Shown one piece after another: positions 1-19,156 of a stretch of 49,412 nt of DNA. The notes under the pieces were generated by a model, which was not told the origin of the DNA, ran no database searches, and worked only from the letters and a program-made list of their open reading frames with translations. Each line of letters begins with the position of its first letter. Position 1 is the stretch's first letter. This stretch comes from a virus. Position numbers and translations under genes: made by a program. Location of the stretch: positions 35,207-84,618 of IMG/VR virus record IMGVR_UViG_3300037963_001253; one strand, given 5' to 3'.

Positions 1-3000
1 TTTAAAGATGTATCTATTCCGATTAAGGTGTCATCATCTTTAGCTACTAATCCAGCTGTAGAAGTAAATGCAGTTGGTGTTACATCTGTGTCTGCCACTG
101 CACTCCAGTTTGTAGTATCTATATTCCATTTCTTAAATACAGTTCCGTTCCAAGCATATAGTGTACTTGGTCCCACTGCAGGTTTAGAATCTACTGGAAG
201 TCCAGGAATTAAAACAGGAGTATAATATCCAACTAAGTTTAAAGGCTGTCCGTCAGGAGTGTAGTCTGGTTGACCTTCCCCTCGTGTATTATAAATTCGT
301 ACTTCGTTAGCTGACGTGTTCAATAATAATCCTGCACATTCTTCCAGTTCTCCTGTATAGAAAGTAGTTGTTGTTGTAACAGTAGTACACTCTTCTACAT
401 TTACCACTTGTCCATCTACAATATAGTATACTGTTCCTAATCCTACAATTGCACCTGGGTCTTGTTCTAAAGTTAAACTATACCATCCATCTGGTACTAC
501 ATTACAACTATTATCTGATAAGAAATATACTATTTTTCCTAGTAAGTTTGGAGCTTGTGATGCCTCAGTAGAAGGGGCATCAAACTCTACAGGGAAACTT
601 ATAGGTAACACTGCTCCTGCTGATCCTGCAACTAACGACTGTGCAGCACATGCATTCTGTAGTGTTTGATTAGTTATAACTGGAGATCCTCCCACTGTTT
701 GATATCCTTCTACAAATCTATAATTTGCATTTAGTCCACTTGGTCTAGAGCATATAGTTGTAGTTGTAGGGTCGGGTACTGTTATGTATCCTACACCATC
801 TATTTCACAACCCAACTCTTCTACCAGTGCAATATCAAAGTCACAATCTGGAACATATGCAGTGGTGGTAGTTGTTGTAAATAAAGGATTACCAGTTGTA
901 GTGGTAGTTGTTGTTAGCTCCACTGGAGGTCCTAATTCACCTACTACTACTTCTAATTGAGGATCTTCTTTATCAATTCTACTTCTATCTGGAGTTTCTA
1001 AAATAGCTGTAAAATTAGTACAACAGTTATTTATACCAGAATAGTAGAAGTTATTTTCTCCAATGTAGAAGTTAGGCAGGTAAGAGTGGAAAGATATCCA
1101 ACTCTTTGTACTAAAGTCAAAAGATATAGTCCAAGACTTATTACAGAAATATTCTTTATCAAATAAGAAAACTTCTTTTTTAGTAGACTCAGTCTCTTGA
1201 ATATAGAAATAGTTACCCTCTACATCATACTGAACTTCATCGTTAATTGGAATATAGTCTAGTTTAGTTATTATAATCCTGTCGAACTTACTATCGTATA
1301 CTCCATGTAATCCTATTCCAGCAAAGTGGTTATCTGTATTTACATCTGGGAAGTATTCTAATATCTCAAACGGTAAATGATTTGTCATGTATCTATTTAC
1401 ACCAGATCCAAACTTAGTAAGATCTAAAGCTTTTGCTCCAGACATTAAGAATATCTGTCCTCTTTTAGCATCTGCTGTAACTGCACCATATGGAATTTTT
1501 AATAAGAACTTGTTTTGAGATCCTACATAACCTAGATCTGTTTCTGCAAAATCTACAGGAGGAGCTCCATCGAATAATCTAGGGTTACCAATATATGCTG
1601 CTTGTGGGTTGCTAGTATCAATTGTTAATAACTTGTTATAAAGCAGTGCTTTGTTATCAAATCTTGCAAGTACAGCTCTGTCCATCATTCCATCTAGAGA
1701 TGTAAGATTACCATAGTTCTGTGGGAAGTCATGGAAAGAAAGGGCTCTGTATACTAACCAGTTATTTACCTTATTATCTGCACTATCTCCTTGGGTGTCA
1801 GAGTAAATAGCTCTAAAGGGGAAGAAAGTAAAACATAATTCTTCTTCCCAATCAGGAGGTAGTTGACTAAATACATTCTCTTTATTTTGTTTAGAGAATG
1901 TAACATTATAATAATATGTATTGTCTTGAGCAATAGGTACATTCTTTTCTTGTAACCAATCATCAGGTATACCTGAACTTACATGTGGCCAGAAGTCTCC
2001 TTCCTTAGTGTTAAAAGCCTGTCTTAGATCTGTATTATATATAGTTTCACAATAGAAATTAGGAATACCATAAGCAAACAAATACATATATCCATCATAG
2101 AATGTTCTTAAAGAACCAGGTCCAGATGTATATAGAGCTGGATTGTTAGGACAATCAAAGTTATTTGCTTTTATAGAAATTATATTTCTTAAAAGTTTTT
2201 GATCACTACTACCAGCGTTAGCAACATAATCAGATAAAATAGATCTAGCTGAATGCCAGAACTTAGGATAAGCAACATTACCTAGTTCATCATAGAATAC
2301 ATCGGAATCATTAGGTGCACCCACTCTATTATCTATAAAGAACGGTAATTTAGTTTTAAAACTAAACCTTGATATGAATACATCTCCACCAAAGAATGTG
2401 TCTTTTCCTGATGCAGGTGATACTAATTTATTATAACCTGTATCTATTCTAGTAAACGAGTTTATCTGACCCCATTGATTAGGTATAATGTTCTTCATTG
2501 ATCCATAGTAGGAAACAACTTTGATGTCTTCTTCTCTTTCAGGTTTATCACAATTACCCACCTCACCTATATTAAATCTAGAAAACTCCACCATACTAGA
2601 AGTTCCATCAGGAGCTGCTAAACTTGGAGTATTCTGTGGTAAAGGGAAGTTATCTATTTCAACATCATTTATACCAGACTGTTTAGTTTTTATATAAACT
2701 GAGGATTCTCTATTCCAGTTGTTTATAGGATAGTCATTGTTATTAAATGATTGGACTCCTGGTATGAGATATCTTGTCAGATCTATTTCTCTTTGTTTTA
2801 TTCCTCCATCTGTATTGTTGTCAATAGGAAAAGAATAATCGTAGTTAGCTCTAGAGTTGAAAGACATTCCATAGTTAGCTCTAGTAATACCATTTACATA
2901 TATAGTTAGATACGATTGATACACCGTAAACATAACTCCAGCATTGAAAGGATTGGTAAGATCTGCTATATCTTCTGAACTTTTTAATGCATCTTCTTGA

Positions 3001-6000
3001 GCTTCTTTAGTAATAAGTTTGTACTTAGCATTATCCTCCACTTGTACAAAGTGAGCTTTACCTCCTCCAAACATTACACTTTCTAGTTTTATTACACTTC
3101 CTAAGAAAGGTTGCCCGAAAGATGTATCAGGAGAATTAAACACCATTTTGTCTAAAATGTTTTTAGCTTCTTCTGCATCCAATCCCTCTAATGGTGTAAT
3201 AGGTATATCTTTATCACATTGTAAACAAGATCTTCTACCTAATCTACCAAATAATCCAGGAAAAAACTGTCCTCCATTAAGTGTCTCATCAAGATTATCA
3301 GCAGGTCTAAAGACTTCATAACCTACTGGACCTAGGTTATTGAGATCCGTATTTCTTGCCCATATAACTGGATTAGGATTAGTAGGTAGTCCAAATGCTA
3401 TTTCATCCTGCCCTTCCTCAGGTTGCACACAACTTTGTGCTGTGTATTGACCAGTGTTATTTAAATCACCAACAGTTTCTGTTACTAAATAATCTGGGTT
3501 TGTTATTACTGTAACATTTCCAGCCTCATCCACTTCACATGAGTTTGCTATGGGGTTAATTCCAATCTGAGGACTGGCGTTTGGTGCTTGGTCAAAAGCT
3601 GTAGGTTTCCATGCATGTGTACGTCCATATTGATCAAGGCCTTGATTACCACCAAACCACACAAATGGATCAATACTATCGTAATCTAGTAAGGGGTCAA
3701 CAGGTGTAATTACATTTTCTTCTGCTACATTCCCTATATCAAAAGCACAAAAAGCATACACCCATCTTTCCGATTTAATATTAAAGTCAGCATTTATGTT
3801 ATTAAATGGATTATACCATCTTGCTCTATATCCACCAGTTCTACATGCAGACGTAAGTCTCCATACATCATAGTCTCCTGGACCAATGGTCATTCTACCT
3901 TTTAACCAGACGGGTCTTGTTCTAGAACAAACTTCTATAACACACCCTTTATTTATATAGGCTTCAGTTCTTTTTCCATTATTTACAGAAGTGTATGTAA
4001 ATACTCCCACATTTTCTAGTTCAGGTATTGTGAATCTATCGCAGTTTTCCTCATTTGGATTACACTCTGCCATCTCTGCATCAGGTGGAAGATATACTAA
4101 ATAAGGTTTAGATTGTCCATCTCCATTCCATGCATTGTTATTTTCCTGTACAAAAGAATCTGTTCCACTAACCTGGTTGTAAGGATAGTTTGGGTAGTAG
4201 TATTCATCATCGTCTCTAACATACTTATTTACATTTCTAAGAATACCTTTTGCTATTACTGATCTGTTAGTACTACGATCTCCTCTAACTATCTTATACG
4301 CAACAATATCATCTTTTTGTTCTTGAGTAAGATTAGAGTTGTGTATAAGATTAAAAATCTGAGCATTATCTATTCTCACTCCTATAGGAAATATTGCATC
4401 ATCCTGCATTACAGGAGCAATGTTGTCTCCATCATATACTATTTCTCCATTCTCTATAATAGGACTGACTAATACATCTGGAAACTTATGGTGTCTTATT
4501 TTCTTTCCAGCCAAATCTCCCCACACATCATCATTACATGGGTATTCTTCTGTAGATTCCCAGTATGCAAAGTTTCCATACTCCCAAGGTCCTTTGTAGT
4601 TAGCTGATGAATTTCCTGGAGCTGATGTTCCCACTACAAAAGCGTTGTTATATATTTTCCAGTATTGGCTATATCCTATACCTGCACTAAAGTAATCTGG
4701 TTCTCCAATAAAATCATTGTTTGTACTTGGTACATCTGGTTGAGGATTTAAGTTTTCAGGACCTGGTATATGAAATGAATCTGTCTGTTTTCCGTTCTTT
4801 AATAAGAATACTATATCGAATGCATAAACTTCATCACGCATGTACCCACGATAGTTTATAGCATTTAGCTCATTAGCATAGTTTTCACTCGCTGGTATTC
4901 TATAAGTTTCCCACTGTAAAGTTATTTTACTAGCTATTTGTTGATAGTTTATTCTGTCTACTGAAGTAAGGTTACTCCAAATCAGAGTATCTTGAGCTGA
5001 AGTCAAGTCTTGTGCTACATCATAGTATGGATACTTTTCAAAGATGTCAGCAATCGATAATTGAATAGGAGTTTGATCTGTTCCGGTATATATAATATCC
5101 TCTGCGTCCTCTGTTATACTGTATGTACCTACTAGTTCTACAGAAGTAATATTATTTATAGTTTTAATTACAGCTAAGTTAAAGTGCTCAAACTGTCCAG
5201 TCGTATCTAGATTAAATACTTTTACTTTTATAGACTTACCCACAGGGTAGTCAAAGTTTACACTGGTTATTAAAGGATCAGCAATAGGACAAGGATTAGT
5301 AACAGAGTAGTAAGAAGTTAAATCGTTACCAGCTGCATCTGAATATTGTACTGCAAACTGGTAGACTCCAGCAGTTAACTGTCCAATGTTGTCTACTTCT
5401 TCTACATCTAAAAAAGGAATACTAAAGTTAGGTTGTATCTTTAATTGATTACAATCAAGATTATTACTATACACTGCATCACCACAATTAGGTGATCCAC
5501 TTATTAGTTCGTAAGGGACGTTATCTATGTCTAGATATCTTCTAGGATTTAATCCATCAGTCCAATATATCTCTGTAGTACAGTTTGTTATTCTGTGTAC
5601 TACTTTATGTATAGGATTATTAAGGTTAAAGTTTAAACAATCCGCATTTACAAGAGTTTGATATTGACAATCATTATTAAACATGAAGCCAATCTCACTC
5701 TTACCTTGAACTGGGTTTACTAAGAAGAATATGTTTTTCTTTTTCTCGGGGATAGTGTGCTTTCCAATTAATTCATAACCATCTGGAAAGCTGAAGCATG
5801 GTTCGTTACCAGGTTCATTTTGATAGTTTACAGAACTAGAATCAAAGTTTTCAACTGTTGCGTTTAAAGCATAAGTTAGGCTTCCTGTCTTAACTTGGTT
5901 TATTGTACTGTCCATATTAAGACCAGTGGTGGCTTGATTATATTCTAATCTTACCTGCCCTTTCTGAGCTTTATCATCCTTTTTAGCCGCAGTAGCTTGT

Positions 6001-6038
6001 TTCTTTTTTGCGTCTTCTATTTCTTTTCTAGTAGCCAT
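1..6038 (-). CDS. Giant crAss-like tail (stabilisation/muzzle-type) protein, 3' end outside window
   Basis: The reading frame is open from an ATG at 6038 to the left edge without a stop, so at least 2012 residues are present and the C terminus is missing. The N terminus is Lys/Ala/Gln-rich; the rest is beta-rich with many Asn, Tyr and Pro. In Crassvirales a very large protein directly downstream of the tail tubular gene forms the distal tail (called tail stabilisation or muzzle protein), and position and size fit that role; the name rests on context rather than on a motif. Two poly-Thr linkers appear near the end of the visible part (residues about 1707-1726 and 1883-1892), with short Cys-containing segments beside them, as in the fibre-block proteins at 10-19 kb. 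It starts 11 bases after the preceding stop and must share the leftward transcript of the tail genes. Confidence 0.75.
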   Translation of the reverse strand, partial: MATRKEIEDAKKKQATAAKKDDKAQKGQVRLEYNQATTGLNMDSTINQVKTGSLTYALNATVENFDSSSVNYQNEPGNEPCFSFPDGYELIGKHTIPEKKKNIFFLVNPVQGKSEIGFMFNNDCQYQTLVNADCLNFNLNNPIHKVVHRITNCTTEIYWTDGLNPRRYLDIDNVPYELISGSPNCGDAVYSNNLDCNQLKIQPNFSIPFLDVEEVDNIGQLTAGVYQFAVQYSDAAGNDLTSYYSVTNPCPIADPLITSVNFDYPVGKSIKVKVFNLDTTGQFEHFNLAVIKTINNITSVELVGTYSITEDAEDIIYTGTDQTPIQLSIADIFEKYPYYDVAQDLTSAQDTLIWSNLTSVDRINYQQIASKITLQWETYRIPASENYANELNAINYRGYMRDEVYAFDIVFLLKNGKQTDSFHIPGPENLNPQPDVPSTNNDFIGEPDYFSAGIGYSQYWKIYNNAFVVGTSAPGNSSANYKGPWEYGNFAYWESTEEYPCNDDVWGDLAGKKIRHHKFPDVLVSPIIENGEIVYDGDNIAPVMQDDAIFPIGVRIDNAQIFNLIHNSNLTQEQKDDIVAYKIVRGDRSTNRSVIAKGILRNVNKYVRDDDEYYYPNYPYNQVSGTDSFVQENNNAWNGDGQSKPYLVYLPPDAEMAECNPNEENCDRFTIPELENVGVFTYTSVNNGKRTEAYINKGCVIEVCSRTRPVWLKGRMTIGPGDYDVWRLTSACRTGGYRARWYNPFNNINADFNIKSERWVYAFCAFDIGNVAEENVITPVDPLLDYDSIDPFVWFGGNQGLDQYGRTHAWKPTAFDQAPNASPQIGINPIANSCEVDEAGNVTVITNPDYLVTETVGDLNNTGQYTAQSCVQPEEGQDEIAFGLPTNPNPVIWARNTDLNNLGPVGYEVFRPADNLDETLNGGQFFPGLFGRLGRRSCLQCDKDIPITPLEGLDAEEAKNILDKMVFNSPDTSFGQPFLGSVIKLESVMFGGGKAHFVQVEDNAKYKLITKEAQEDALKSSEDIADLTNPFNAGVMFTVYQSYLTIYVNGITRANYGMSFNSRANYDYSFPIDNNTDGGIKQREIDLTRYLIPGVQSFNNNDYPINNWNRESSVYIKTKQSGINDVEIDNFPLPQNTPSLAAPDGTSSMVEFSRFNIGEVGNCDKPEREEDIKVVSYYGSMKNIIPNQWGQINSFTRIDTGYNKLVSPASGKDTFFGGDVFISRFSFKTKLPFFIDNRVGAPNDSDVFYDELGNVAYPKFWHSARSILSDYVANAGSSDQKLLRNIISIKANNFDCPNNPALYTSGPGSLRTFYDGYMYLFAYGIPNFYCETIYNTDLRQAFNTKEGDFWPHVSSGIPDDWLQEKNVPIAQDNTYYYNVTFSKQNKENVFSQLPPDWEEELCFTFFPFRAIYSDTQGDSADNKVNNWLVYRALSFHDFPQNYGNLTSLDGMMDRAVLARFDNKALLYNKLLTIDTSNPQAAYIGNPRLFDGAPPVDFAETDLGYVGSQNKFLLKIPYGAVTADAKRGQIFLMSGAKALDLTKFGSGVNRYMTNHLPFEILEYFPDVNTDNHFAGIGLHGVYDSKFDRIIITKLDYIPINDEVQYDVEGNYFYIQETESTKKEVFLFDKEYFCNKSWTISFDFSTKSWISFHSYLPNFYIGENNFYYSGINNCCTNFTAILETPDRSRIDKEDPQLEVVVGELGPPVELTTTTTTTGNPLFTTTTTTAYVPDCDFDIALVEELGCEIDGVGYITVPDPTTTTICSRPSGLNANYRFVEGYQTVGGSPVITNQTLQNACAAQSLVAGSAGAVLPISFPVEFDAPSTEASQAPNLLGKIVYFLSDNSCNVVPDGWYSLTLEQDPGAIVGLGTVYYIVDGQVVNVEECTTVTTTTTFYTGELEECAGLLLNTSANEVRIYNTRGEGQPDYTPDGQPLNLVGYYTPVLIPGLPVDSKPAVGPSTLYAWNGTVFKKWNIDTTNWSAVADTDVTPTAFTSTAGLVAKDDDTLIGIDTSL
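861..918 (-). repeat. Poly-Thr coding tract in giant tail protein
   Basis: Runs of ACT/ACA codons encode two blocks of six to seven threonines separated by a Gly-Asn-Pro-Leu-Phe spacer. A second, shorter Thr run is encoded at about 364-390. Both look like flexible linkers between small C-terminal modules. Confidence 0.7.
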
Positions 6039-7059: not shown

Positions 7060-7539
7060 TTATTTTTTCCATTCATGATACATATGTTGGTATTTAGAGT
7101 CTGCTTTTAAATAGTGAGATAGATCTCTAGAAGTTCTTCTAGAAGGTTTAAAGTACCAAAGATCTGAGTTTCTGAATCTAGCACTTTGTTTAAACCACAT
7201 CCATCCAAAAAAATATCCTTCTGTATGGTAATTAAAGTTATAAATAACCTTTCCTTTTTCTCTCGTCTTCTGCCAATCTATAGGAAGATTTATAAACTCC
7301 TTTCCATTTACTCCTTTAGTTCTTTTTCTTTTCTTCTTATTTATTGAAAACTCTCCAAAACCTGTTGGTAGTTTTTCTTTCTCTCCTGTTTCTAAGATGT
7401 AGTATTTGAATGACTCATTAAAAGCATAAACAATATTTCTCCACTCATCGAAAGTAAGGGATACTAAGGGGTGTTTCTTACAGAAGTCCTCGTAATTATC
7501 TTTACTTGCACTTCGCCAGTCAACTGCTACTCTTGACAT
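7060..7539 (-). CDS. IHF/HU-like DNA-bending family protein of Crassvirales (tail-cluster copy)
   Basis: I place the start at 7539, giving 159 residues beginning Met-Ser-Arg-Val-Ala-Val-Asp-Trp. The longer frame from 7584 would overlap the upstream gene by 35 bases and adds residues that do not match the family. The core shows the IHF-type hairpin motif Lys-Leu-Pro-x-Gly-Phe-Gly-Glu-Phe followed by a Lys/Arg cluster. The second half, rich in Trp, Tyr and Arg, is the lineage-specific extension I recognise from crAss genomes. Crassvirales usually carry an IHF-like gene next to the tail tubular gene, and that is the position here. DNA binding, structural use in the virion, or both are possible; the sequence does not decide. 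Confidence 0.75.
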   Translation of the reverse strand: MSRVAVDWRSASKDNYEDFCKKHPLVSLTFDEWRNIVYAFNESFKYYILETGEKEKLPTGFGEFSINKKKRKRTKGVNGKEFINLPIDWQKTREKGKVIYNFNYHTEGYFFGWMWFKQSARFRNSDLWYFKPSRRTSRDLSHYLKADSKYQHMYHEWKK

Positions 7540-7549
7540 ATATAGTTTT

Positions 7550-8278
7550 TTACTGAGTCGGTTGGGCATTTGGAGCTTGTCCATCTATACCCTCTTGAGT
7601 CATGTCGGTTTTAATTTGGAAGTATGTAGCTAGTAACTTCTGAGATACTAGTCCTAGAACTGAAGACTCTAGGTAGCCAGGAAGAGCATATTCCTTATCC
7701 AAAGGGTTTTTGCAATATTCTTCATCTGTAACTTCTACACCTCCACACTCACAATCTGAATACATAACTTCACTTGGTACATCTTCTTCAAAGAAAGCAG
7801 CTATTCTTATCGCTTTCAATAAAGGATTGTTTACATACAAGTATCCGTTTGATATCCAGAAGTAGTATTCATTTTTTACTACAGGTAGTTTTAATAAATT
7901 TAGATATCTATTTATTGTTATTTCTTTTAGTTTAGTTCCTTTTCCACCCATCGCATTGATAGAGTAGACTCCTTGTATTACATATTGATAGTTACCCTCT
8001 GATATTCTGGGTAACTTATTAACTGTTCTAGCTACATTGCAATCATCAGCAAATTCACAACAGTCAGAAATAGGCACTTCTTTCATTTCTAAACAAGGAA
8101 TAGTGGTATATAAAGTATCACTAGCCCATAACTTTCTTAAATTAGTTTCTCTTTTTATCAATAACTGAGACTGACTTCTTATCTCAGAAGCAATAACTCT
8201 GTCTGTGATAAGTGCATCAGTTGATAAAATTTTATGCGTTCCACGAACGTCTGAAACTAATTTTCTTAATGTTGCCAT
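7550..8278 (-). CDS. Conserved crAss neck/tail ring-like structural protein
   Basis: This 242-residue protein opens with a Thr-Leu-Arg-Lys-Leu-x-Ser-Asp-Val-Arg pattern and continues with Ser-Thr-Asp-Ala-Leu-Ile-Thr-Asp-Arg and Ile-Asn-Ala-Met-Gly-Gly-Lys-Gly. I recognise these as hallmarks of a core structural protein of crAss-like phages encoded beside the tail tubular gene. It has two Cys clusters (Cys-Cys at about 73-74; Cys-Glu-Cys near 177). The tail ends Gly-Gln-Ala-Pro-Asn-Ala. It overlaps the 67-aa gene upstream by 13 bases. A role as a ring at the portal-tail junction is inferred from neighbours and conservation; no enzymatic motif is visible. Confidence 0.72.
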   Translation of the reverse strand: MATLRKLVSDVRGTHKILSTDALITDRVIASEIRSQSQLLIKRETNLRKLWASDTLYTTIPCLEMKEVPISDCCEFADDCNVARTVNKLPRISEGNYQYVIQGVYSINAMGGKGTKLKEITINRYLNLLKLPVVKNEYYFWISNGYLYVNNPLLKAIRIAAFFEEDVPSEVMYSDCECGGVEVTDEEYCKNPLDKEYALPGYLESSVLGLVSQKLLATYFQIKTDMTQEGIDGQAPNAQPTQ

Positions 8279-9890: not shown

Positions 9891-10553
9891 TTATACAGGA
9901 TCGTTACAACAGTTTTGATGAATCCATGTAAATTCAAAATCATCTCCTGAAACTCCACTAAAATCAAAGTCATCAACATTACAAGGAGTTTCTAATTGAT
10001 TTCCTACTACACTGTAATTACTTATGTTAAGTGTTCCTATGTTACCGTTTCCATTGTTTTGAGTGTTTACCATCTTTATTTCATTTCTGTAAGATATAAG
10101 AGATGGATCAAAAAAGGATAGAGCCATATTACTGAGAGGACAAACAAAGTTTGGTTGTGTTATAATTTGAGGAACATTACTAGCAACCATTACTGATCCA
10201 TCTTGAGATGCTGCACTTAAATCAACAGATCCTATTGTTACTCCGTTTAAAAGTATATCAAAGTTATCTTGTATAGTAGCACCACTATTACAGATAGAAA
10301 TAACTATTGTTTGATTAGGACAAACTGGAGGTAAACTTACACTTATATCTTCATAATTTTGACACTCAGGATTATTAGATATTATTCTAACCACTGTAGT
10401 TCCCACAGGAACATTGTAAGAAACAAATCCTATCAGTAATTGAGCTGACGTTATACCTGTTTCAAAAGCCTGTGTGAAACCATCTACTTGAGAAAATAAG
10501 TTAAAAGGTCCTGCATCACTTCCTACGTTACTAGCTTGTATAAGTATTGCCAT
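9891..10553 (-). CDS. Virion surface protein: GPF-LFS domain plus beta-sandwich-like C-terminal region
   Basis: Residues 1-75 are the fourth copy of the small domain repeated between 9.9 and 12.2 kb (Gly-Pro-Phe-Asn-Leu-Phe-Ser, Phe-Glu-Thr-Gly, Val-Pro-x-Gly-Thr, then a Cys and an Asp-Ile). Unlike the other fused copy it is followed without a Thr linker by a region of about 145 residues with alternating hydrophobic residues, an Asn-Gly-Val motif and several cysteines (Cys-Asn near 109, Cys-Pro near 139, and a Cys-Cys near the end). This is typical of a beta-sandwich decoration or receptor-binding domain. No known family is recognised. It is the last gene before the terminator, one base after the neighbouring start. 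Confidence 0.6.
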   Translation of the reverse strand: MAILIQASNVGSDAGPFNLFSQVDGFTQAFETGITSAQLLIGFVSYNVPVGTTVVRIISNNPECQNYEDISVSLPPVCPNQTIVISICNSGATIQDNFDILLNGVTIGSVDLSAASQDGSVMVASNVPQIITQPNFVCPLSNMALSFFDPSLISYRNEIKMVNTQNNGNGNIGTLNISNYSVVGNQLETPCNVDDFDFSGVSGDDFEFTWIHQNCCNDPV

Positions 10554-10554
10554 A

Positions 10555-10788
10555 TTATGTTGTTATAGGAGTATCTACAAAATTACTACAGTCCGCATTG
10601 TTATTTTGTATTCTAATAATTGTACTTCCAGCAGGTACATTAAGTGTAGTATATCCAAGTGCACTTGTTAATACAGTGATAGATATACCAGTTTCAAAAG
10701 CGACTGCATAATTATCTGCATCTGAATAAAGATCACAAGGACCTGAACAGACTCCTGCTGATGTTAATTTTATATTTGTTGAAGCCAT
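10555..10788 (-). CDS. Stand-alone GPF-LFS domain protein (77 aa)
   Basis: The whole protein is one copy of the repeated domain: Gly-Pro-Cys-Asp-Leu-Tyr-Ser at 16-22, Phe-Glu-Thr-Gly at 31-34, Val-Pro-Ala-Gly-Ser near 52 and Cys-Ser-Asn near 67. It ends in Pro-Ile-Thr-Thr, where a Thr linker begins in the fused copies, so it looks like a domain without its attached module. Function unknown; a structural subunit or assembly plug for the same fibre complex is the likeliest reading. Confidence 0.6.
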   Translation of the reverse strand: MASTNIKLTSAGVCSGPCDLYSDADNYAVAFETGISITVLTSALGYTTLNVPAGSTIIRIQNNNADCSNFVDTPITT

Positions 10789-10799
10789 ATCTAATTTAT

Positions 10800-11936
10800 T
10801 TAAGCGTTACAAGGTGCTGCGTAAGTTATCTCTCCTCCTGCACTTACCTGTATGGAATAACTAATCGGATCAGGACCTGCAATAGATGGTTCATAATGCC
10901 AATAGTTACCTCCTCCATTAAATGTTCCTGCACTACCGGTTGAGTTTACATACAAGAATTCTCCTACTTGTGGAACTGCTGTTGCACCATTCTTCCAAAC
11001 AAAGTTTACTAAATCAAATTCACAAATACTTATCTGTAAGTTAGGATCAGACTGTGAAGATCTTAGTCCTGCAAATAATGAAAGAGCACTAGTAGTAGTG
11101 GTTGTTGTTGGTGGAGGAACTTTAGTAGTTGTAGTTCCTGTTGTAACTGCACTTGCACCATTTAATGAACAATCACATGTTGTAGTAGTTGTAGTTGTTG
11201 AAGAAGAAGTACTGGTCGTTGTAGTACTAGTACTAGAACTAGAACTTGTAGTTGTTGTTGTAAGTTCTTTATATGTATCAGCAACAAAACTAAAGTCTAC
11301 ATCAACTCCTGCTCCTGTATAATCTGGACTCATAACAGTTGTGAAACTATTTGTACAGAAACTACATACATCTTGTGCTTGATATAATACACCATCTTTT
11401 ACAATAGTGTTAATAAAGTTGTACACTCCTATTCTATCACTATCTATTGTAGCAGAAACTACGTCACCTGGGAATACTGCAATTGTTCCACTTTGTGAAG
11501 AAGCATTACCTGTAATAGTTGCATCTACTACATTAACTCCGTTAACATCTATCTTTAAGTTACTACTTTGTGGATCTGCTGCCACTAGAGAATTTGGAGT
11601 GTTTGTTATCAGCTCCCAGTTAAATTTATTAGGAGGTTGTTCTGTAGTAGTCGTTGAAGTGGATGTTGAAGTACTTGTAGTGGTTGACGTACTAGAACTA
11701 GTTGTAGTAGTTGTAGTAGGACAGTTGGTAGGAATATCTACACAATTAGTACAAACACCTGTAGAGCAAACTCTTACAGTTGAAGTTCCTGCAGGTGCAA
11801 CTACTATATATCCAGCGATTAAACTTGCAGCAGGGACTTGTGTATCAAAAGGTGCAGCATAGTTGTCCACATTTGAAAATAAATCAAATGGTCCTGCTTG
11901 TCCGTCTATCGTTAATGTTATTTCTATTAAAGCCAT
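10800..11936 (-). CDS. Modular surface protein with GPF-LFS domain, Thr/Ser linkers and three further modules
   Basis: This 378-residue protein is built as domain-linker-domain. The repeated GPF-LFS domain occupies 1-73; a Thr/Ser linker 74-98; a beta-rich domain about 104-225, with Trp-Glu, Asn-Gly-Val-x-Val-Val and Phe-Pro-Gly-Asp motifs; a second linker 226-253; a short Cys-x-Cys segment 254-260; a Thr-Pro linker about 268-283; and a final 95-residue domain with Asn-Gly-Gly-Gly-Asn-Tyr-Trp. The 104-225 domain resembles the C-terminal domain of the serine-protease protein encoded at 13.7-16.0 kb, so modules have been exchanged between genes. Thr/Ser linkers of this kind could be glycosylated or act as spacers in a fibre. 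No enzymatic motif is seen. Confidence 0.65.
   Translation of the reverse strand: MALIEITLTIDGQAGPFDLFSNVDNYAAPFDTQVPAASLIAGYIVVAPAGTSTVRVCSTGVCTNCVDIPTNCPTTTTTTSSSTSTTTSTSTSTSTTTTEQPPNKFNWELITNTPNSLVAADPQSSNLKIDVNGVNVVDATITGNASSQSGTIAVFPGDVVSATIDSDRIGVYNFINTIVKDGVLYQAQDVCSFCTNSFTTVMSPDYTGAGVDVDFSFVADTYKELTTTTTSSSSSTSTTTTSTSSSTTTTTTTCDCSLNGASAVTTGTTTTKVPPPTTTTTTSALSLFAGLRSSQSDPNLQISICEFDLVNFVWKNGATAVPQVGEFLYVNSTGSAGTFNGGGNYWHYEPSIAGPDPISYSIQVSAGGEITYAAPCNA
11178..11261 (-). repeat. Thr/Ser-linker coding tract
   Basis: Simple-sequence DNA of ACT, ACA, AGT and TCT codons encoding about 28 Thr/Ser residues in the middle of the 378-residue protein. A second tract (11643-11717) encodes its first linker and a shorter one lies near 11091-11135. 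Such DNA is prone to slippage, and lengths in steps of three would keep the frame. Confidence 0.75.
11643..11717 (-). repeat. Thr/Ser-linker coding tract
   Basis: Encodes the 25-residue Thr/Ser linker that separates the GPF-LFS domain from the next module in the 378-residue protein. On the plus strand it reads as repeated GTAGT/GTTGT triplets. Confidence 0.75.
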
Positions 11937-11938
11937 AA

Positions 11939-12223
11939 TTATACTGGTGGTATTGTGGTTGTTGTACTTGTTGTGTTAGTAGTACTCGTTGTTGTTGTTG
12001 TTGGTTGTTGCAATATAATATCAAAACTGTTATCACACAAAGAATCTGATGCTACTTTTATTATAGTGGTCCCTGCAGGAACTACTCCTATACTATACCC
12101 AGCTAACAGCTGAGCTTTACTAACACCAGTTTCAAAAGCAGTGGTGAACCCATCCGCATCTGAAAATAGATTGAAGGGTCCAGTGTTATTTCCTGCCGTA
12201 GTTAGTTTTATAAATACTTGCAT
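11939..12223 (-). CDS. GPF-LFS domain protein with C-terminal poly-Thr tail (94 aa)
   Basis: Residues 1-74 are a clear copy of the repeated domain (Gly-Pro-Phe-Asn-Leu-Phe-Ser at 15-21, Phe-Glu-Thr-Gly at 30-33, Val-Pro-Ala-Gly-Thr near 48, Cys-Asp-Asn near 63). Residues 75-90 are almost all Thr with a few Ser and Asn, and the protein stops at Ile-Pro-Pro-Val without any domain after the linker. It therefore looks like the front half of a two-domain protein. It ends 3 bases before the start of the next copy. Confidence 0.6.
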   Translation of the reverse strand: MQVFIKLTTAGNNTGPFNLFSDADGFTTAFETGVSKAQLLAGYSIGVVPAGTTIIKVASDSLCDNSFDIILQQPTTTTTSTTNTTSTTTTIPPV

Positions 12224-12224
12224 A

Positions 12225-12539
12225 TTATGGGCAACAAGTGGTTAATGTATTATTTATATCAATTATGTTTTGTTTCATTAATGCAATCTCTTGTGTGTTT
12301 GCAGTTGATTGATTCTTCAAGGTACAAAGAAGTTCGTCAATTTTAGACAAAACAACGTTTAAATCATCACATGGTTCTGCATTTGAACAAGGTAATATCG
12401 GTCCATTGTATGTAATAGACTTTGAATAATGTACGTTTGTTGTACATGGATCACAAGAACAACTTGCTGTGCTAGTGCATCCACAAGCGGTGTTTAGTGT
12501 TATATCTGTACAACAAGGATTTGTAGGTAAGTATGCCAT
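12225..12539 (-). CDS. Cysteine-rich small structural protein (104 aa)
   Basis: The first 60 residues hold most of about 14 cysteines, several as Cys-Cys, Cys-Gly-Cys or Cys-Ser-Cys; the second half is a predicted helix with a heptad-like pattern (Ile-x-x-Leu-x-x-x-Leu) ending in Cys-Cys-Pro. Similar Cys-rich N termini occur in the collar-fibre protein just upstream and in the 1041-residue protein, suggesting a shared way of docking or cross-linking in the virion. A trimeric coiled coil is plausible. No family is recognised. Confidence 0.5.
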   Translation of the reverse strand: MAYLPTNPCCTDITLNTACGCTSTASCSCDPCTTNVHYSKSITYNGPILPCSNAEPCDDLNVVLSKIDELLCTLKNQSTANTQEIALMKQNIIDINNTLTTCCP

Positions 12540-12550
12540 TTTTTTTAGTA

Positions 12551-13702
12551 TTAAGGTATGTAAATTATATAATATCCTCCGATTCCAGGCTGGTAATTAT
12601 CATGACCGAGTCCTCCTCCTGCAGGGTCTATAGTTACGTTTACATCAATAGTCTGTGAAACTTCACTAGATTTACCAACTGTTGCAGCTCCATCGTTTCC
12701 TCTTAGAGCATATCCTAAATTACCACCAGTTGAATTAACTTGTGAAATTTGATTGGTGTTTGCAGGTGGATTAGTATTTCCTGAGCTCTGTAAAGTTACT
12801 GTAAAGTGAGAGTGACTTGGAGGATTAATTGATGATGTTGTAGTAGAAGCATGATTATGACTAGGAATTTGTGCTGTTGATAATACTACTTGATTACTTC
12901 CTTGCATTTGTTGCAGATTGTAACTTGGATTACCAGCAACAGATGGATTAACAGTGTCATCCATGTTCGCTCCTCCCATATCTGTAGCTCCAACTACTAC
13001 TCTTCCTCTTAAGTCTGGTGTTCCGTTATTTCCATTACATAGAAATATTCTATCCCACTCACCTATACCAGCTCCTGAAGAGTCAAAAGGAGTTAATGCA
13101 CCAAAGTATGGAACTGCAGCATAAGGAACCATTCTATTACTGATTAATTGTTGTTGAGGATTATTGTTCAAATAGTTCTCTATGTACGTATTTATATCAA
13201 CAATTTTTACATAATTAGTAGTAACATCTGTAATAAAAGTATTTAGTGATTGCTCAACTTCACATAATTTTGATATAGTTTGTTGTAAAACATCTCGAGT
13301 GCTAGTGTTATCTGTGACTCCAGATACACATTCTACATCGTAGGCAGGTAAATTTGGATTTCCTCCACCATTAGCTTCTTGTTGTAATTGTAGTATTTCA
13401 TCATTTAAGTCGCATATAGTTTTAATAATACCTGTTAGATAGTTATTTAAAGATAAGGGATTACACTCATCTAGATTACCCTGTACTACAGGACATATAT
13501 CTGAAGGAGCAACTACAGGTTGGATACCTGTACCATCAAGTGCAGCACCTAAAAAGGTAATAAGGGCTTGCTCTACATAAGATAGAGAGTCTCCATTTTG
13601 TATCCCTAATATAGGAACGTCTACACCTGTATATTTAACGCACTTGTCTGAAGTAATTTCAGTACAGCCGTTGTAACAGTTTGAGCAATTTTGTGTTGAC
13701 AT
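12551..13702 (-). CDS. Tail fibre protein with phage tail-collar domain
   Basis: This 383-residue protein starts with a Cys-rich segment (Cys6, Cys9, Cys13, Cys21) and a Gly-Asp-Ser-Leu-Ser motif near 37-41 that I associate with tail proteins of Bacteroidota phages. Residues 95-185 are helical. Residues about 195-238 are a tail-collar domain (Gly-Thr-Pro-Asp-Leu-Arg-Gly-Arg at 227-234). The rest is the fibre tip typical of this family, with His-x-His pairs (Ser-His-Asn-His at 281-284; Ser-His-Ser-His at 296-299) and the terminal block from His367 to Pro383, which contains Tyr-Gln-Pro-Gly. Family members form trimeric short tail fibres and bind metal through the His pairs. It is the best candidate for a host-binding fibre in the window. 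Confidence 0.8.
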   Translation of the reverse strand: MSTQNCSNCYNGCTEITSDKCVKYTGVDVPILGIQNGDSLSYVEQALITFLGAALDGTGIQPVVAPSDICPVVQGNLDECNPLSLNNYLTGIIKTICDLNDEILQLQQEANGGGNPNLPAYDVECVSGVTDNTSTRDVLQQTISKLCEVEQSLNTFITDVTTNYVKIVDINTYIENYLNNNPQQQLISNRMVPYAAVPYFGALTPFDSSGAGIGEWDRIFLCNGNNGTPDLRGRVVVGATDMGGANMDDTVNPSVAGNPSYNLQQMQGSNQVVLSTAQIPSHNHASTTTSSINPPSHSHFTVTLQSSGNTNPPANTNQISQVNSTGGNLGYALRGNDGAATVGKSSEVSQTIDVNVTIDPAGGGLGHDNYQPGIGGYYIIYIP

Positions 13703-13727: not shown

Positions 13728-16028
13728 TTATGGTGAGGTTTGTGTAAATGTTATTGTTATGGGTCCGCTACCTACATTAGTTGGACTAAATGTAGTAGTG
13801 ATAGGACCTATTAAAGCTGTAGCAGTCCCGGTGGTAGTGTCTGAAACTAACGAAGCACCTGCTCCTACTGCTGATTGGAATATTGTATTATCATCTCCTG
13901 CACTACTTCTCTTGTAACTCATTGCTAGTTCATACACGTGACCTTCTTGGAAGTACTCATTGGTATATGGAGATGCAGCATTACTTGTTGTATTAGCATC
14001 TTTCTCAAAAAACTTACCTATACTAGAATCTGTGGTATCAGTAATAGATACGTATTGTGGACTAGCTGCATCCCAAGCATCTTCTATATCCACAGTAATA
14101 CTCGATGTTGAAGCAGCAGTGATAACTACTTTATATTGTAATTTAGGATCTGTTGGAGTAGCAGTTATATTTAATAAAGATAATGTACTTGTTCTAGATG
14201 CACCAGCTGCTATAAAACCTGCATCATCATCTAATAAACTCACTCCTCCAGATACACTACCTTTATATTGTTCGTGTAGTGCATATTGTGGGTATGATGC
14301 AGGATTATTATCTGTTTCAAGACTTTGAGTTATCTTGTCTCCTGGACTAACACTAAATGTTCCACTACCTGTAGGGGTAGCAGGATCAAATGTTACAGGA
14401 CCTACTACTGAAACTCCATTCTTAAAGATTTCTAAAGTTGATTCTCTCCATGACTTAGTAGTACCAGGATCTGAACCTTCAAACTCCCAAGTCATTGCAA
14501 ATGCTGTTGTAGTTGATGTGGTTGTTGTACTACTACTAGTAGACGTACTGGTACTTGTGCTAGTACTTGTACTTGTGCTAGTAGAAGTGCTCGTAGAAGT
14601 GCTCGTAGAGGTACTAGTAGACGTGCTAGTAGTACTTGTACTGGTACTAGTAGATGTGCTAGTTGAACTACTTGTTGTTGTAGTGGTAGGTGGAGCAGTA
14701 GTAGTTGTTGTAGTAGTATTACCACCACAGTTAGCTTCTAGTGAACCTGTAAATCCTACTTGCCAGTATTCTTCGTTTTCACATAAAATAAACTTTTCAT
14801 CGCTTTGACCTGGTATAGTTATATATTCAATAGTGTCTGGGTCTACCATAACTCCAGCAGTTGATGCTGTGTCTACATATTGTTCTATTCCTAACTGGTC
14901 TGCTACATCATCTATTCTACATGCGTAACCTATAAGAGCTACACCTTGAGCATTCTCACTTCCAGCAAAACAAAGTCCTACTATTTTTATTGTTCCGTTT
15001 ATATCTGCTAGTAAGAAAGATCCTGAATCACCCCTGTATATAGGATAAGGACAAACTTCACTAGGGTTTTGAGCATTAGGTTCTTCTTGAGTTGGTTTTA
15101 TAAATGCAATAGCTCTGTTAAATTGACAGAATGTAGGTACTCCTTGTAGGCTATAAGATAATTGAATACTAACACCAGTTGCATGTACTGTCATAGGACA
15201 GTCAGGAACAAATCCTTTTGCTCCAGTTGTTCTTCCAGAACTGTAAAGACGAGGATTAGTAGCTAGTAAGTTATCTAGTTCTCCAGTGCTTGCAAAAGGT
15301 GGAGCATTGTTTCCAAGTATCGATTCTAATCCTACTTGGTTCCAAGATTGTGATATTGAAAATGCACTTTCATCAATAGAAAATATAGCTGCATCTACTT
15401 GATTCACAAGTCCTGTGCTTGAAGGATGAATAGGAACATATCTTAAACTTACTCCGAAGTTATTAGATGTAGGTGTACTAGGTCCTAGTTCTCCGGTTTG
15501 ATACACTCTATTTACTGGATCATAATCATTTTCTAGAACTCCGTTTACATCTCTAGCACTTGTAAAGAACGCATCATCTATAGCAACATGATTATTTGTT
15601 AATCCTACTGTACATCCACTATCTGTATGACGTACTATACCTCCTAAAGTTCCCACTGAATTATTATTGTTTCTACTAGACATGGAGGTACCTCCTTGAA
15701 TAGGTCTTACAGTAGCTCTATTAGCTGCATTACTTGGTCCAGCATTAATGTTACCACAAGTAGAAGAACATGTTCCTAGAACAAAGTTTGCATATACTTC
15801 TGTTACATCTGTCTTTAAGCTTTGATTGTTGACAATAACTTCAACTGGAATTAACTCATCGGCAGGAACTACAGAAATGTCTTTCTTTTCTTTCACTCCC
15901 ACTATAATAGCAAACTCACCAGTTTCTACACCATTAGATTGTTTCTTTCCAAATCCAATAGATGTAGCATTCGGATATTGTAATCTCAATTCTTCAATCT
16001 TATCTAATATGTCTTGTGTTAATATCAT
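13728..16028 (-). CDS. Trypsin-like serine protease with Thr/Ser linker and C-terminal surface domain
   Basis: Residues 1-400 form a chymotrypsin-fold protease like the bacterial/plant Nal1-type trypsin-like peptidases: an N-terminal beta module with Gly-Phe-Gly-Lys-Lys near 25, then a catalytic triad read as His147 (Asn-Asn-His-Val-Ala), Asp212 (Val-Asp-Ala-Ala-Ile) and Ser335 (Gly-Asp-Ser-Gly-Ser). A Thr/Ser linker of about 75 residues (437-511) joins it to a 255-residue beta-rich domain with Trp-Glu-Phe, Asn-Gly-Val-x-Val-Val and Ser-Pro-Gly-Asp motifs, also found in the 378-residue protein at 10.8-11.9 kb. No signal peptide is seen, so it is presumably assembled into the virion and could cut host surface protein or mature its neighbours. 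The stop of the 1041-residue gene lies just upstream. Confidence 0.8.
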   Translation of the reverse strand: MILTQDILDKIEELRLQYPNATSIGFGKKQSNGVETGEFAIIVGVKEKKDISVVPADELIPVEVIVNNQSLKTDVTEVYANFVLGTCSSTCGNINAGPSNAANRATVRPIQGGTSMSSRNNNNSVGTLGGIVRHTDSGCTVGLTNNHVAIDDAFFTSARDVNGVLENDYDPVNRVYQTGELGPSTPTSNNFGVSLRYVPIHPSSTGLVNQVDAAIFSIDESAFSISQSWNQVGLESILGNNAPPFASTGELDNLLATNPRLYSSGRTTGAKGFVPDCPMTVHATGVSIQLSYSLQGVPTFCQFNRAIAFIKPTQEEPNAQNPSEVCPYPIYRGDSGSFLLADINGTIKIVGLCFAGSENAQGVALIGYACRIDDVADQLGIEQYVDTASTAGVMVDPDTIEYITIPGQSDEKFILCENEEYWQVGFTGSLEANCGGNTTTTTTTAPPTTTTTSSSTSTSTSTSTSTTSTSTSTSTSTSTSTSTSTSTSTSTSTSTSTSSSTTTTSTTTAFAMTWEFEGSDPGTTKSWRESTLEIFKNGVSVVGPVTFDPATPTGSGTFSVSPGDKITQSLETDNNPASYPQYALHEQYKGSVSGGVSLLDDDAGFIAAGASRTSTLSLLNITATPTDPKLQYKVVITAASTSSITVDIEDAWDAASPQYVSITDTTDSSIGKFFEKDANTTSNAASPYTNEYFQEGHVYELAMSYKRSSAGDDNTIFQSAVGAGASLVSDTTTGTATALIGPITTTFSPTNVGSGPITITFTQTSP
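14496..14720 (-). repeat. Long Thr/Ser-linker tract with tandem repeats
   Basis: About 225 bases encode roughly 75 Thr/Ser residues, mostly alternating Ser-Thr. At the DNA level there are short tandem copies, for example the 12-base unit GTAGAAGTGCTC twice in a row near 14580-14605 on the plus strand. Replication slippage should make this tract length-variable. Confidence 0.8.
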
Positions 16029-16030
16029 AA

Positions 16031-19000
16031 TTAATTATTTGTTACAATAGGATAAAATCTAGTAAATATTGTTCTTACACCTGGAGGTACAGTGGTTGTA
16101 GTAGTTGTTGTATTAGGATTTGTTGTAGTTGTAGTGGTAGTACCTGAAAAATTAAATCCGTCACTTATTCTACAGCTTGGTTTACTTCCTGCACTTCCAC
16201 CATTATAACTATCATCAGACTCTGCAACACTCCATTCTAGTGTATCGAAACTAACCTTCCATAACTCAGTGGTATTAGTATCTAAACGTCTTGCAGTAAT
16301 GTATAGGAACTCACCAATTACAGACATGTCTCCTACAGTCCTATAGTTTTCAGCTAGTCCTGGACCAGTTAACATAGTCTCACCTTCAAAGTTACCTGTA
16401 GCATAATCAAATTGTGAAACTACTATAGGTTCATTTGATCGTAAACCTATATATTTACTTGGTGTTCCATCTTGATTAAGAGTTACTACATGCTCACTAC
16501 CTCCATTAAATGGTTCAGGTATTATGAATTTTAGACTTACTGCTAAAATATTAGATCCTGGTACAAATGAAGCTTCAAACACCCTTTTACCTTGTTGTCC
16601 GGATAACCTATAATTAAGAACAAAAGTATCATCATTGATTGTAGACACTCCCCCTTGAAACCTGCAGGTTCCAGAACAATCAGGTAAATCATTTGGATCA
16701 AGTTCATAAATTACTCCATCCCAAGAAACATTTTCAGGTACCCCAGTTGCTGATGTATCATAATAAAGTCTTACATACTTATAGACCCATTGACCTTGGT
16801 CATCATCTATGCTGATTGTATTTACCAGATAATTTTCACTAACACAACTATTAGGAACTGTGAAAGCACTTCCTGGTGGTAATACTATTGGTTCTAAATT
16901 GCCCGTTACAACATCGTGTGACTGCAATATCCTGTATCTAGGATCTGAAGCCTCTGGAAAGTTGTTTTGAGGAGCACATACTCCAGGATTGTCATTACAG
17001 TCATATACCTCCAAAGTTCCATATATTCTATTACAATTCAGTGCTGGGTCAGGACATCCTAAAAGTAATTGTCCACCACTTGGTGCATTACCATATATAG
17101 TCATGGATGTATAGCTAGCAGGAGCAGTAACTTTAAACTCTCCATCCCCTTCATTAAAAAGAGGGGCTTCAGCAGGTACATAAGGATTTTGTACTCCACC
17201 CCATAGTCTATTACCATCAGCTTGAACATAACATCCTTGAGTTATAGAAAGTGTTGGAGTTCCACCATTAGTTTCTACATAGTATACATCTGATACTCCA
17301 TCATCTGTACCATCTGGATTACTATTTAGAACACCAGCTCTAATTGGAATGTTGTTAACTGGTACAGGGAAATTAATTGTAATACTAAAATTATCACCGT
17401 TTACTTTGTTAGATACAGCTGGTCCATTTGGATAATTAGATTCTGGTAATCGAAGTCCACTACAAGGTGAAGATAAATTTGAAGCTTGGCCTAAAAACAT
17501 CTGAGTTGTACCAAGAGGTGATTGAGTAAATGCGTCTACATTCCCTGCTAGAGTTGCTGTACAAGTCATTCCTTCAAATGTAAATGTTTGAGGAGTAGGA
17601 TCATATACACCTCCTTGAAACGGTGTAGCTGGATTACCTTCTGCATCAAAGAAGAAAGGAGGGAAGTAAGTACCACCACAATCATTTGCATTTTCAAATT
17701 CAATGTTAGAACAATGTGTAGCTGAACTTAACCAGTCATTAGAACTGGTTACACTAGTGGCAAGTGTCAAATTGTAAGGAGGTAATTGATCTATTGTGTA
17801 AACCTCTAAAGTTTCTGGATGTAACACTTGTGCTAATCCATTTACACCCCAGAAAGGTGCATCTTTTACTCCTGTATAATCATTTGTAAATTCTGGATAT
17901 CCACTGTTCTGTAGTATCCGTGAAGCAATAGCTAGATTATATAGTTCAAATTCAGGATTAGACGGAGTTACAGGGAACACTTTGATGTAGTTACCTACAG
18001 CACCTGCAAAACCTGATCCATCAGGATTAAGATCTAGTCTATATCCCATTACTAACTGCCCTGAATTTGTATAAGTAATATTACTTATCTTATTTGCACT
18101 ATCTTGAGAATTACTAGCTGCCCACGCAGAAGATATATCAGTTTCAGCAATTGTAATATCTCCTGCAGCTGCAATACTAAATTCATGAAGATACATTCTA
18201 CCCTCTCCACCAGTACCTTCTTGTGGTGCTGGAGCGTGTCTATAGCCTGTTCCAATAATAAGTGTATCATTATCTTTTGCAGTTATAGCCCATACAGAAG
18301 TTCCTCCAAGATTAACTGAACTAGAAAACTGTCCTGTAGGAACTGTTATCTCTCTTACATAAGTTAATGTAGGAGCATTTGGTGTAGTTCCATCTATGTC
18401 CCATTCTCTAATATATACCTTATTCTGAAATCTTGATGACCCTTGATCAACTATACTAACTAACCATAGTTTATCTTCTGTAGCACACAGAGGTCTTTCA
18501 ATACCTACTGTCTCATTAAAGTCATTAGGAACTAATACATCTGTAGCTGTGTTTGTATCAAAGTCATATACACCAACTAAACCTGGATTACCACCATTAG
18601 TAGACCAAATACATGGTACACCAAATGGATCTGGGAAATAACTTGTGGTAGTAGTTGTAGTAGGAGGTGCTGTAGTAGTAGTAGTTGTTGTAATATTACA
18701 ATCAATCACACCACTAAAGTTACAGTTAAGAGTTGTAGTTGTTGTTGTGGTTGGTGCTAAAGTTGTTGTAGTAGTTGTACTTGAACTTGACGTACTAGTT
18801 GTTGTAGTTGTAGGATTAGGACAAGGAGTTATTGGGCATGTAGTTATTTCACATACCGTTGGCTCACCACAATGTGGCACACAACCAGCTGTAAGACGAA
18901 TTACGTTACTAGCAATAGTTTCTGTATCTACACCATGACAGTCTTTAGCATAATGAGTGTCACAATACCTATAAGTTAGTACACGTTTGTATACCAGTAA

Positions 19001-19156
19001 CTCTGAGATAGCTGCATGCTCAATAGGCTTGTTCAACATAAATACAACATTGTTGTATAAGTTGCTTCCAAGCTCTGCTAATTTGCAATCTATTCTTCTG
19101 AGTAAATCAGGAATGTCTGCACACCCCTTACAATTCGTTAATCTAGGTTGTAACAT
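16031..19156 (-). CDS. Large modular surface/tail protein with Cys-rich N terminus and Thr linkers (1041 aa)
   Basis: The N-terminal 115 residues contain many cysteines (Cys9, Cys12, Cys24, Cys65, Cys73, Cys92, Cys96 and others). A linker at 116-171 consists of Thr/Ser runs around a short Cys-x-Phe-Ser-Gly-x-x-x-Cys segment. The rest (about 175-1005) is beta-rich, and its early part has recurring Gly, Trp and Asp-Asn patterns compatible with a beta-propeller. A second Thr linker (about 1006-1024) is followed by a 19-residue tail with Phe-Thr-Arg-Phe-Tyr-Pro. The N-terminal Cys block resembles those of the two smaller fibre proteins and may be a docking domain. No catalytic motif is recognised; receptor or glycan binding is the natural guess. 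Confidence 0.55.
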   Translation of the reverse strand: MLQPRLTNCKGCADIPDLLRRIDCKLAELGSNLYNNVVFMLNKPIEHAAISELLVYKRVLTYRYCDTHYAKDCHGVDTETIASNVIRLTAGCVPHCGEPTVCEITTCPITPCPNPTTTTTSTSSSSTTTTTTLAPTTTTTTTLNCNFSGVIDCNITTTTTTTAPPTTTTTTSYFPDPFGVPCIWSTNGGNPGLVGVYDFDTNTATDVLVPNDFNETVGIERPLCATEDKLWLVSIVDQGSSRFQNKVYIREWDIDGTTPNAPTLTYVREITVPTGQFSSSVNLGGTSVWAITAKDNDTLIIGTGYRHAPAPQEGTGGEGRMYLHEFSIAAAGDITIAETDISSAWAASNSQDSANKISNITYTNSGQLVMGYRLDLNPDGSGFAGAVGNYIKVFPVTPSNPEFELYNLAIASRILQNSGYPEFTNDYTGVKDAPFWGVNGLAQVLHPETLEVYTIDQLPPYNLTLATSVTSSNDWLSSATHCSNIEFENANDCGGTYFPPFFFDAEGNPATPFQGGVYDPTPQTFTFEGMTCTATLAGNVDAFTQSPLGTTQMFLGQASNLSSPCSGLRLPESNYPNGPAVSNKVNGDNFSITINFPVPVNNIPIRAGVLNSNPDGTDDGVSDVYYVETNGGTPTLSITQGCYVQADGNRLWGGVQNPYVPAEAPLFNEGDGEFKVTAPASYTSMTIYGNAPSGGQLLLGCPDPALNCNRIYGTLEVYDCNDNPGVCAPQNNFPEASDPRYRILQSHDVVTGNLEPIVLPPGSAFTVPNSCVSENYLVNTISIDDDQGQWVYKYVRLYYDTSATGVPENVSWDGVIYELDPNDLPDCSGTCRFQGGVSTINDDTFVLNYRLSGQQGKRVFEASFVPGSNILAVSLKFIIPEPFNGGSEHVVTLNQDGTPSKYIGLRSNEPIVVSQFDYATGNFEGETMLTGPGLAENYRTVGDMSVIGEFLYITARRLDTNTTELWKVSFDTLEWSVAESDDSYNGGSAGSKPSCRISDGFNFSGTTTTTTTNPNTTTTTTTVPPGVRTIFTRFYPIVTNN
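18644..18811 (-). repeat. Thr-linker coding tract with embedded Cys module
   Basis: Encodes Thr/Ser runs on both sides of a roughly 10-residue Cys segment, followed by a Thr-Ala-Pro-Pro-Thr motif that also occurs in the serine-protease linker and, cut short, at the end of the 383-residue protein encoded at 19.9-21.1 kb. Confidence 0.7.

Follow-up and report, generated by a model that had tools for sequence, protein, structure and literature searches.

In modular phage receptor-binding proteins, such as T7-type tail fibres and depolymerase tailspikes, the N-terminus is a conserved anchor on the virion and the C-terminal tips can be exchanged. In crAss-like phages, which are abundant and almost all uncultured, host recognition is poorly known. 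According to Bayfield et al. 2023 (PMC10172136), the crassvirus muzzle is one conserved protein whose length varies through insertions within its crass and IG2 domains, and in the phiCrAss001 system of gp38, gp39 and gp22, fibres dock on the tail hub by a short N-terminal segment. Yutin et al. 2021 described genes of crAss-like phages that are fragmented by introns and inteins.

We have analysed a stretch of 49,412 nucleotides (the window; G000:C1:35207-84618) of a 111,707-base (111.7-kb) IMG/VR virus contig. The window is part of a crAss-like phage (Crassvirales-type) genome. This genome has portal, terminase, major capsid, ring, IHF and muzzle genes in crassvirus order, with PHROGs matches for the portal (E 3e-92), TerL (2e-83) and the major head protein (8e-37). 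Relatives of phiCrAss001 gp40 (R2), gp42 (IHF), gp43 (R1) and gp44 (muzzle) lie in the same gene order at 7550-8278, 7060-7584, 6049-7056 and 3-6038, with BLASTP E-values of 6e-5, 1e-6, 1e-3 and 5e-4, respectively. Considering that the R2 homologue (minus strand; phrog_9863, E 4e-18) lies at 7550-8278, the gene cassette described below is placed in the tail block. A tail-fibre/collar protein (12551..13702, minus strand; phrog_8763 E 1e-19, phrog_8469 E 7e-19) is encoded directly upstream of the cassette. Also encoded in the tail block, at 13728-16028, is a protease-like protein (phrog_20754, E 2.5e-13) in which an extended Ser/Thr repeat is accompanied by a beta-rich C-terminal region.

A common N-terminal domain in four tandem genes

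Four open reading frames (ORFs) are located on the minus strand at 9891-10553 (220 aa), 10555-10788 (77 aa), 10800-11936 (378 aa) and 11939-12223 (94 aa). The initial annotation had reported these frames and proposed that all four begin with the same domain of about 73 residues, which we call the GPF domain; the frames are present, and the homology was borne out by alignment, shuffled controls and a search of the own genome. In the alignment, G-x3-G-P-x2-L-x-S-x2-D, F-x-T, L, G, P-x-G, C-x-N and D are invariant in the four copies. All six pairs gave Smith-Waterman z-scores of 15-31 against 1000 shuffles, the weakest real pair scoring 109 and the top shuffle 55. When one copy was used as the query, it retrieved the other three from the genome at E 7e-15 to 5e-9.

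As the initial annotation had also stated, two copies lack a C-terminal domain, one being bare and one having only a Thr tail, and the other two carry differing C-terminal regions. Copy 1 (10332..10553) is the N-terminus of the first ORF and precedes an unnamed payload of about 146 aa (9894..10331), which is kept in 27 contigs (payload cluster 2) and belongs to no Pfam or PHROGs family. Copy 2 (10558..10788) makes up the entire 77-aa ORF; its orthologues are bare in the window, L008, L009 and L017, and have a payload of about 110 residues in L011, L020 and L022. Copy 3 (11721..11936) is followed at 10803..11720 by a Thr/Ser linker, a beta-rich domain ("sandw"), a Thr linker and a small Cys-terminated domain ("term_cys"). 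HMMs of these two payload domains find both in further GPF proteins, and "sandw" also in tail ORFs without GPF, for example L013:2-2515. We do not claim that the small Cys-terminated domain belongs to the family of the muzzle-tail Cys domain, for which the HHalign probability was just 36%. Copy 4 (12005..12223) has a Thr tail of about 20 residues and no payload. Just before copy 4, a small Cys-rich protein of 104 aa is encoded at 12225-12539, likewise in L160, and in L181 an ORF resembling it precedes the first GPF gene. It is a possible candidate for a hub or fibre partner.

In a tree of GPF domains, in which many forks are weak because only 76 columns were available, the four window copies fall in different old lineages, each with orthologues in other contigs, and the four-gene order is maintained in many contigs. 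Among IMG/VR loci, one copy finds 46 matches, and a relative of copy 4 finds 387. Close-relative searches gave no match by tblastn with two GPF queries in 50,697 GenBank phage records, and in prokaryote genomes (one per species, 84,980 species) one GPF query gave 132 pattern hits, of which 0 were relatives, a result with which distant GPF relatives remain compatible.

The earlier remark that no named family has this signature agrees with our searches: the GPF profile had no match below 0.01 in Pfam, PHROGs or NCBIfam, and profile searches of PDB sequences with the GPF domain and with the muzzle fragment described below gave no match. AlphaFold, with 38 relatives as input, predicted for copy 4 a beta-sandwich with one helix (pLDDT 85.4). 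With this model, Foldseek found no significant match in the PDB (best 8gl6_D, E 0.76, TM 0.53), and we accordingly did not accept a resemblance to the Ig-like or T9SS-CTD folds. In BFVD, five proteins of the metagenomic phage Virus NIOZ-UU157 (A0A7S9XH99, A0A7S9STY0, A0A7S9SU37, A0A7S9SU94 and A0A7S9XFL2) match the predicted GPF fold at TM 0.84-0.91. One of these has 287 aa, the length of the muzzle fragment (TM 0.84). The five proteins are uncharacterized, and the records examined propose neither a function nor a family for them.

Exchange of payloads behind the GPF domain

We collected 422 GPF ORFs from IMG/VR contigs, whose loci include overlapping and redundant records. Across these ORFs, the conserved N-terminal domain stands in front of exchangeable C-terminal domains. 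GPF starts within a few residues of the Met and occurs once per ORF (0/422 with two domains). Of the 226 cassette proteins that are unique and complete, 71 end fewer than 15 aa after GPF, and in 160 GPF is closely followed by a Ser/Thr run. The longer payloads, 122 in number, form 15 clusters without a BLAST link between clusters. Payloads from different clusters stand behind GPF domains of at least 75% identity in 83 pairs, and in L241 and L242 the GPF domains are 98% identical with unrelated payloads behind them.

Several payloads could be named, namely Fib_succ_major (1e-25), BspA-type LRR_5 (8e-8) and a DUF5122 propeller (4e-28). Fib_succ_major is listed among the domains of target or variable proteins of diversity-generating retroelements (PMC4159848). 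Payloads are also found outside the GPF proteins. In L160, GPF is joined to the propeller-like payload of the window tail protein at 16031..19156 (minus strand; payload HMM E 1.8e-71), which itself has another, Cys-rich N-terminus, and homologues of 14 GPF payloads stand on muzzle ends, among them a Fib_succ_major domain with 47% identity (E 4e-50). The initial annotation had proposed a common adaptor that presents variable tips. This idea is strongly supported on the one hand by the invariably single and N-terminal GPF domain with Thr linkers and unrelated payloads behind it, and on the other hand by near-identical anchors with different payloads and by payload families shared with the muzzle and another tail protein. 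Judged from their sequences, the GPF proteins are built like an anchor at the N-terminus to which different tips can be attached.

A split muzzle and a fifth GPF copy

The muzzle is split in two genes here and in about 80 sampled contigs. Its N-terminal piece, muzN (3..6038, minus strand), runs past the window edge, ends in Thr-linked tip domains, and matches phrog_37948 (E 4e-114) and positions 12-479 of phrog_15100 (1.7e-27). The C-terminal piece, muzC, is a 290-aa ORF at about -1770 to -898 in window numbering (L058:13436-14308), and its residues 90-288 (the last ~200) match positions 1586-1781 of 1783 of phrog_15100. Together, the two pieces cover the N-terminal part and the C-terminus of the crassvirus muzzle family. 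In FpV4, Lbo-JY46 and csAssE-Sib, the segment equivalent to muzC is the end of one long protein, which in csAssE-Sib is one annotated muzzle, and the profiles of the two muzzle parts lie 6-8 residues apart in single chains (1457/1464, 2071/2080 and 1763/1770). In the GPF clade, the corresponding spot is taken up by a long tail with tips and its stop codon, together with a start codon and a GPF domain. The GPF profile gave no match in FpV4, Lbo-JY46, csAssE-Sib and phiCrAss001, all with unsplit muzzles, a set that holds no positive control. Lbo-JY46 (L060), a Leptolyngbya phage and thus cyanobacterial, has a single-chain muzzle whose C-terminus gave the best GenBank E-value (2e-13) to muzC of this clade. 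Mapping of the cut onto gp44 coordinates was dropped since the matches are too weak, and blade numbers are therefore not given.

The N-terminus of muzC is a fifth, divergent GPF copy about 0.9 kb beyond the left edge of the window, which the initial annotation had missed and which came to light when a divergent hit from L040 was used as the query against the phage's own genome. Of the 86 ORFs with a muzC part, an HMM built without muzC copies detected 53 at E < 1e-3 and 75 at E < 10, and an HMM from the four window copies alone detected 40 at E < 1e-3; these 86 ORFs include three unsplit muzzles without GPF, as well as duplicates and redundant loci. The E-values that link the muzC N-terminus to the cassette-domain HMM are modest, the best being about 1e-10. 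Element for element, the secondary structure predicted for muzC residues 1-67 is the same as in the model of copy 4, and the tree sets the muzC copies apart from the cassette copies with support 100/100. We regard the identity of the muzC N-terminus as a GPF domain as established. In the AlphaFold model, residues 1-80 are confident (pLDDT ~80-93) and the region beyond GPF has a pLDDT of ~30, so this fragment is predicted not to fold alone, which would fit a part of a propeller but is no proof of it.

A scan for muzC relatives gave 401 matches, of which 80 were kept. In most of these 80 contigs muzN and muzC are adjacent, often with a 4-base overlap. We saw no intron or intein at the junction, where the genes overlap or abut and domains are appended at both new ends; the cut looks different from the fragmentation reported by Yutin et al. 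2021. A search of open-access full text for a split crassvirus muzzle returned one paper, in which "split" refers to gene modules. In about ten contigs (L112, L113, L120, L124-L128, L133 and L140) the muzzle consists of three pieces in consecutive genes. The second cut is just before the CNKSW (CNKSWT) segment, the middle gene starting shortly before CNKSWT, and the loop preceding CNKSW contains an uncut Thr-rich insertion in some two-piece muzzles, for example in L077 and L080. In L112, L113 and L124, the first muzzle piece has a Fib_succ_major-like domain at its end, and in general the new muzzle ends carry GPF or tips that are also present on GPF proteins.

Runs of N at L058:14526-14535 and 15197-15206 (window about -680 to -671 and -9 to 0) bracket a stretch of the muzN tail with a foreign-looking translation (VLGLSTAGGAKVLGDRVTDYLKQNPEVMNDP...). 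We suspect a scaffolding join, and the muzN end of this genome is therefore unreliable. At L040:6253-6960, an ORF inserted right behind muzC was judged by eye to be a putative GIY-YIG-like endonuclease.

In each of 20 long contigs that had been chosen because their muzzles are split, one muzC-type copy occurs together with 1-5 further GPF copies; nearly all of them were selected by muzC, so they show the co-occurrence in one direction only. Among 16 contigs chosen for cassette GPF, 11 have a separate muzC, four, including some short records, do not show it, and one is G029. This FpV4-like phage has an unsplit 1956-aa muzzle without GPF and a single GPF gene (L179:6671-7906), and it is the only such case seen. 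Accordingly, GPF needs no GPF on the muzzle, and we rejected a universal socket in which cassette GPF proteins plug only into the GPF domain of muzC.

Function of the GPF domain and comparison with known systems

The fixed N-terminus, the linker, the swapped C-terminus, the tail neighbourhood and the payloads common with muzzle ends make the pattern of a tail-adhesin anchor. Considering that GPF stands on hundreds of proteins with swappable ends and on a broken-off muzzle end, it is most likely a universal plug by which host-recognition tips are mounted on the tail. We therefore consider, with moderate confidence, that GPF docks tail adhesins to the virion as their N-terminal anchor, in environmental crAss-like phages that form a large clade. 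Docking on the virion is suggested by gene position, by the kind of payload and by the fusion to a muzzle fragment, and position and conservation suggest that GPF is the docking part. Each phage would have several anchor genes, a flexible Ser/Thr linker behind the anchor would hold the exchangeable payload, and the payload would probably contact the host surface, the payload types being consistent with receptor or host binding. Bare anchors could be unloaded or filler subunits. The presence of GPF proteins in virions, their docking partner and their stoichiometry are what we infer; the socket may be the tail hub, ring proteins, the muzzle or other GPF domains.

Three other explanations were considered for the domain. 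GPF itself could be an Ig-like domain that binds glycan or matrix on surfaces, with its N-terminal position incidental and the bare copies as minimal decorations. The predicted small beta-sandwich, the bare 77-aa copies and the weak PDB matches, which are mostly Ig-like and carbohydrate-binding with none significant, would suit such a role. However, one would expect a recognition tip to be variable, whereas GPF is more conserved than the regions behind it, even to 98% identity before unrelated payloads. It also occurs only once per protein and only at the N-terminus, and a structural role is suggested by its fusion to part of the muzzle. We consider a surface-binding domain unlikely. GPF could also help its own chain to assemble or fold, as a trimerisation or hexamerisation cap or as a clamp of the split muzzle, without itself docking to the virion, attachment being by another part. 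The conserved Cys is found in 37/37 muzC GPF domains counted and in 81/146 cassette domains and is the only Cys in 41 ORFs, so it could link subunits; inter-subunit disulfides occur in the phiCrAss001 tail (PMC10172136), and their formation through the GPF Cys is speculation. The muzC fragment that is predicted not to fold alone is also in line with an assembly aid. Yet in most payload proteins GPF is the only conserved N-terminal region by which they could be attached, and bare GPF ORFs would have nothing to assemble; we consider this role about as unlikely as surface binding. Finally, adjacency and similarity could indicate recent tandem duplicates without special function, the outcome of gene drift in a fast-evolving region, but this is already contradicted by the age of the four lineages, whose orthologues keep their order in many contigs, and we give it hardly any credence.

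The reading that we prefer also covers the fusion to muzC. The muzzle, the hexameric tail-tip gatekeeper of crassviruses, is here encoded in two or three chains, and its break points would be used as further display sites. We propose, tentatively and with rather less conviction, that the muzzle of this clade is a multi-chain tail tip: a propeller of two or three polypeptides whose broken ends serve as display stalks, with GPF as a dedicated plug by which the phage mounts a swappable panel of tips on it. The split raises the structural question of how a tail gatekeeper works when it is assembled from pieces.

The GPF domain has no match in the close-relative searches of GenBank phages and prokaryote genomes and is thus invisible to current annotation. 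With a recognisable anchor domain, adhesin genes could be detected automatically across hundreds of genomes of environmental phages, and the payloads of these genes could be compared with host ranges.

With respect to phiCrAss001 (PMC10172136), gp44 has the same position after R1 as muzN, which matches gp44 as well as muzzle PHROG families. However, gp44 is one 1371-aa chain without GPF, whereas the muzzle here consists of two or three chains that end with tips or GPF. The GPF cassette sits in the part of the tail block that corresponds to the tail hub and fibre genes of phiCrAss001. The GPF profile had no match in the whole phiCrAss001 genome, and gp22 docks by its residues 1-26, not by a folded beta-sandwich. 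Like the modular receptor-binding proteins, the GPF proteins have a conserved N-terminus, a flexible linker and a mosaic C-terminus, and related anchors carry unrelated tips. Unlike those proteins, their anchor is a new family of about 73 residues with several paralogues per phage, some of which are tipless and one of which is on a muzzle fragment.
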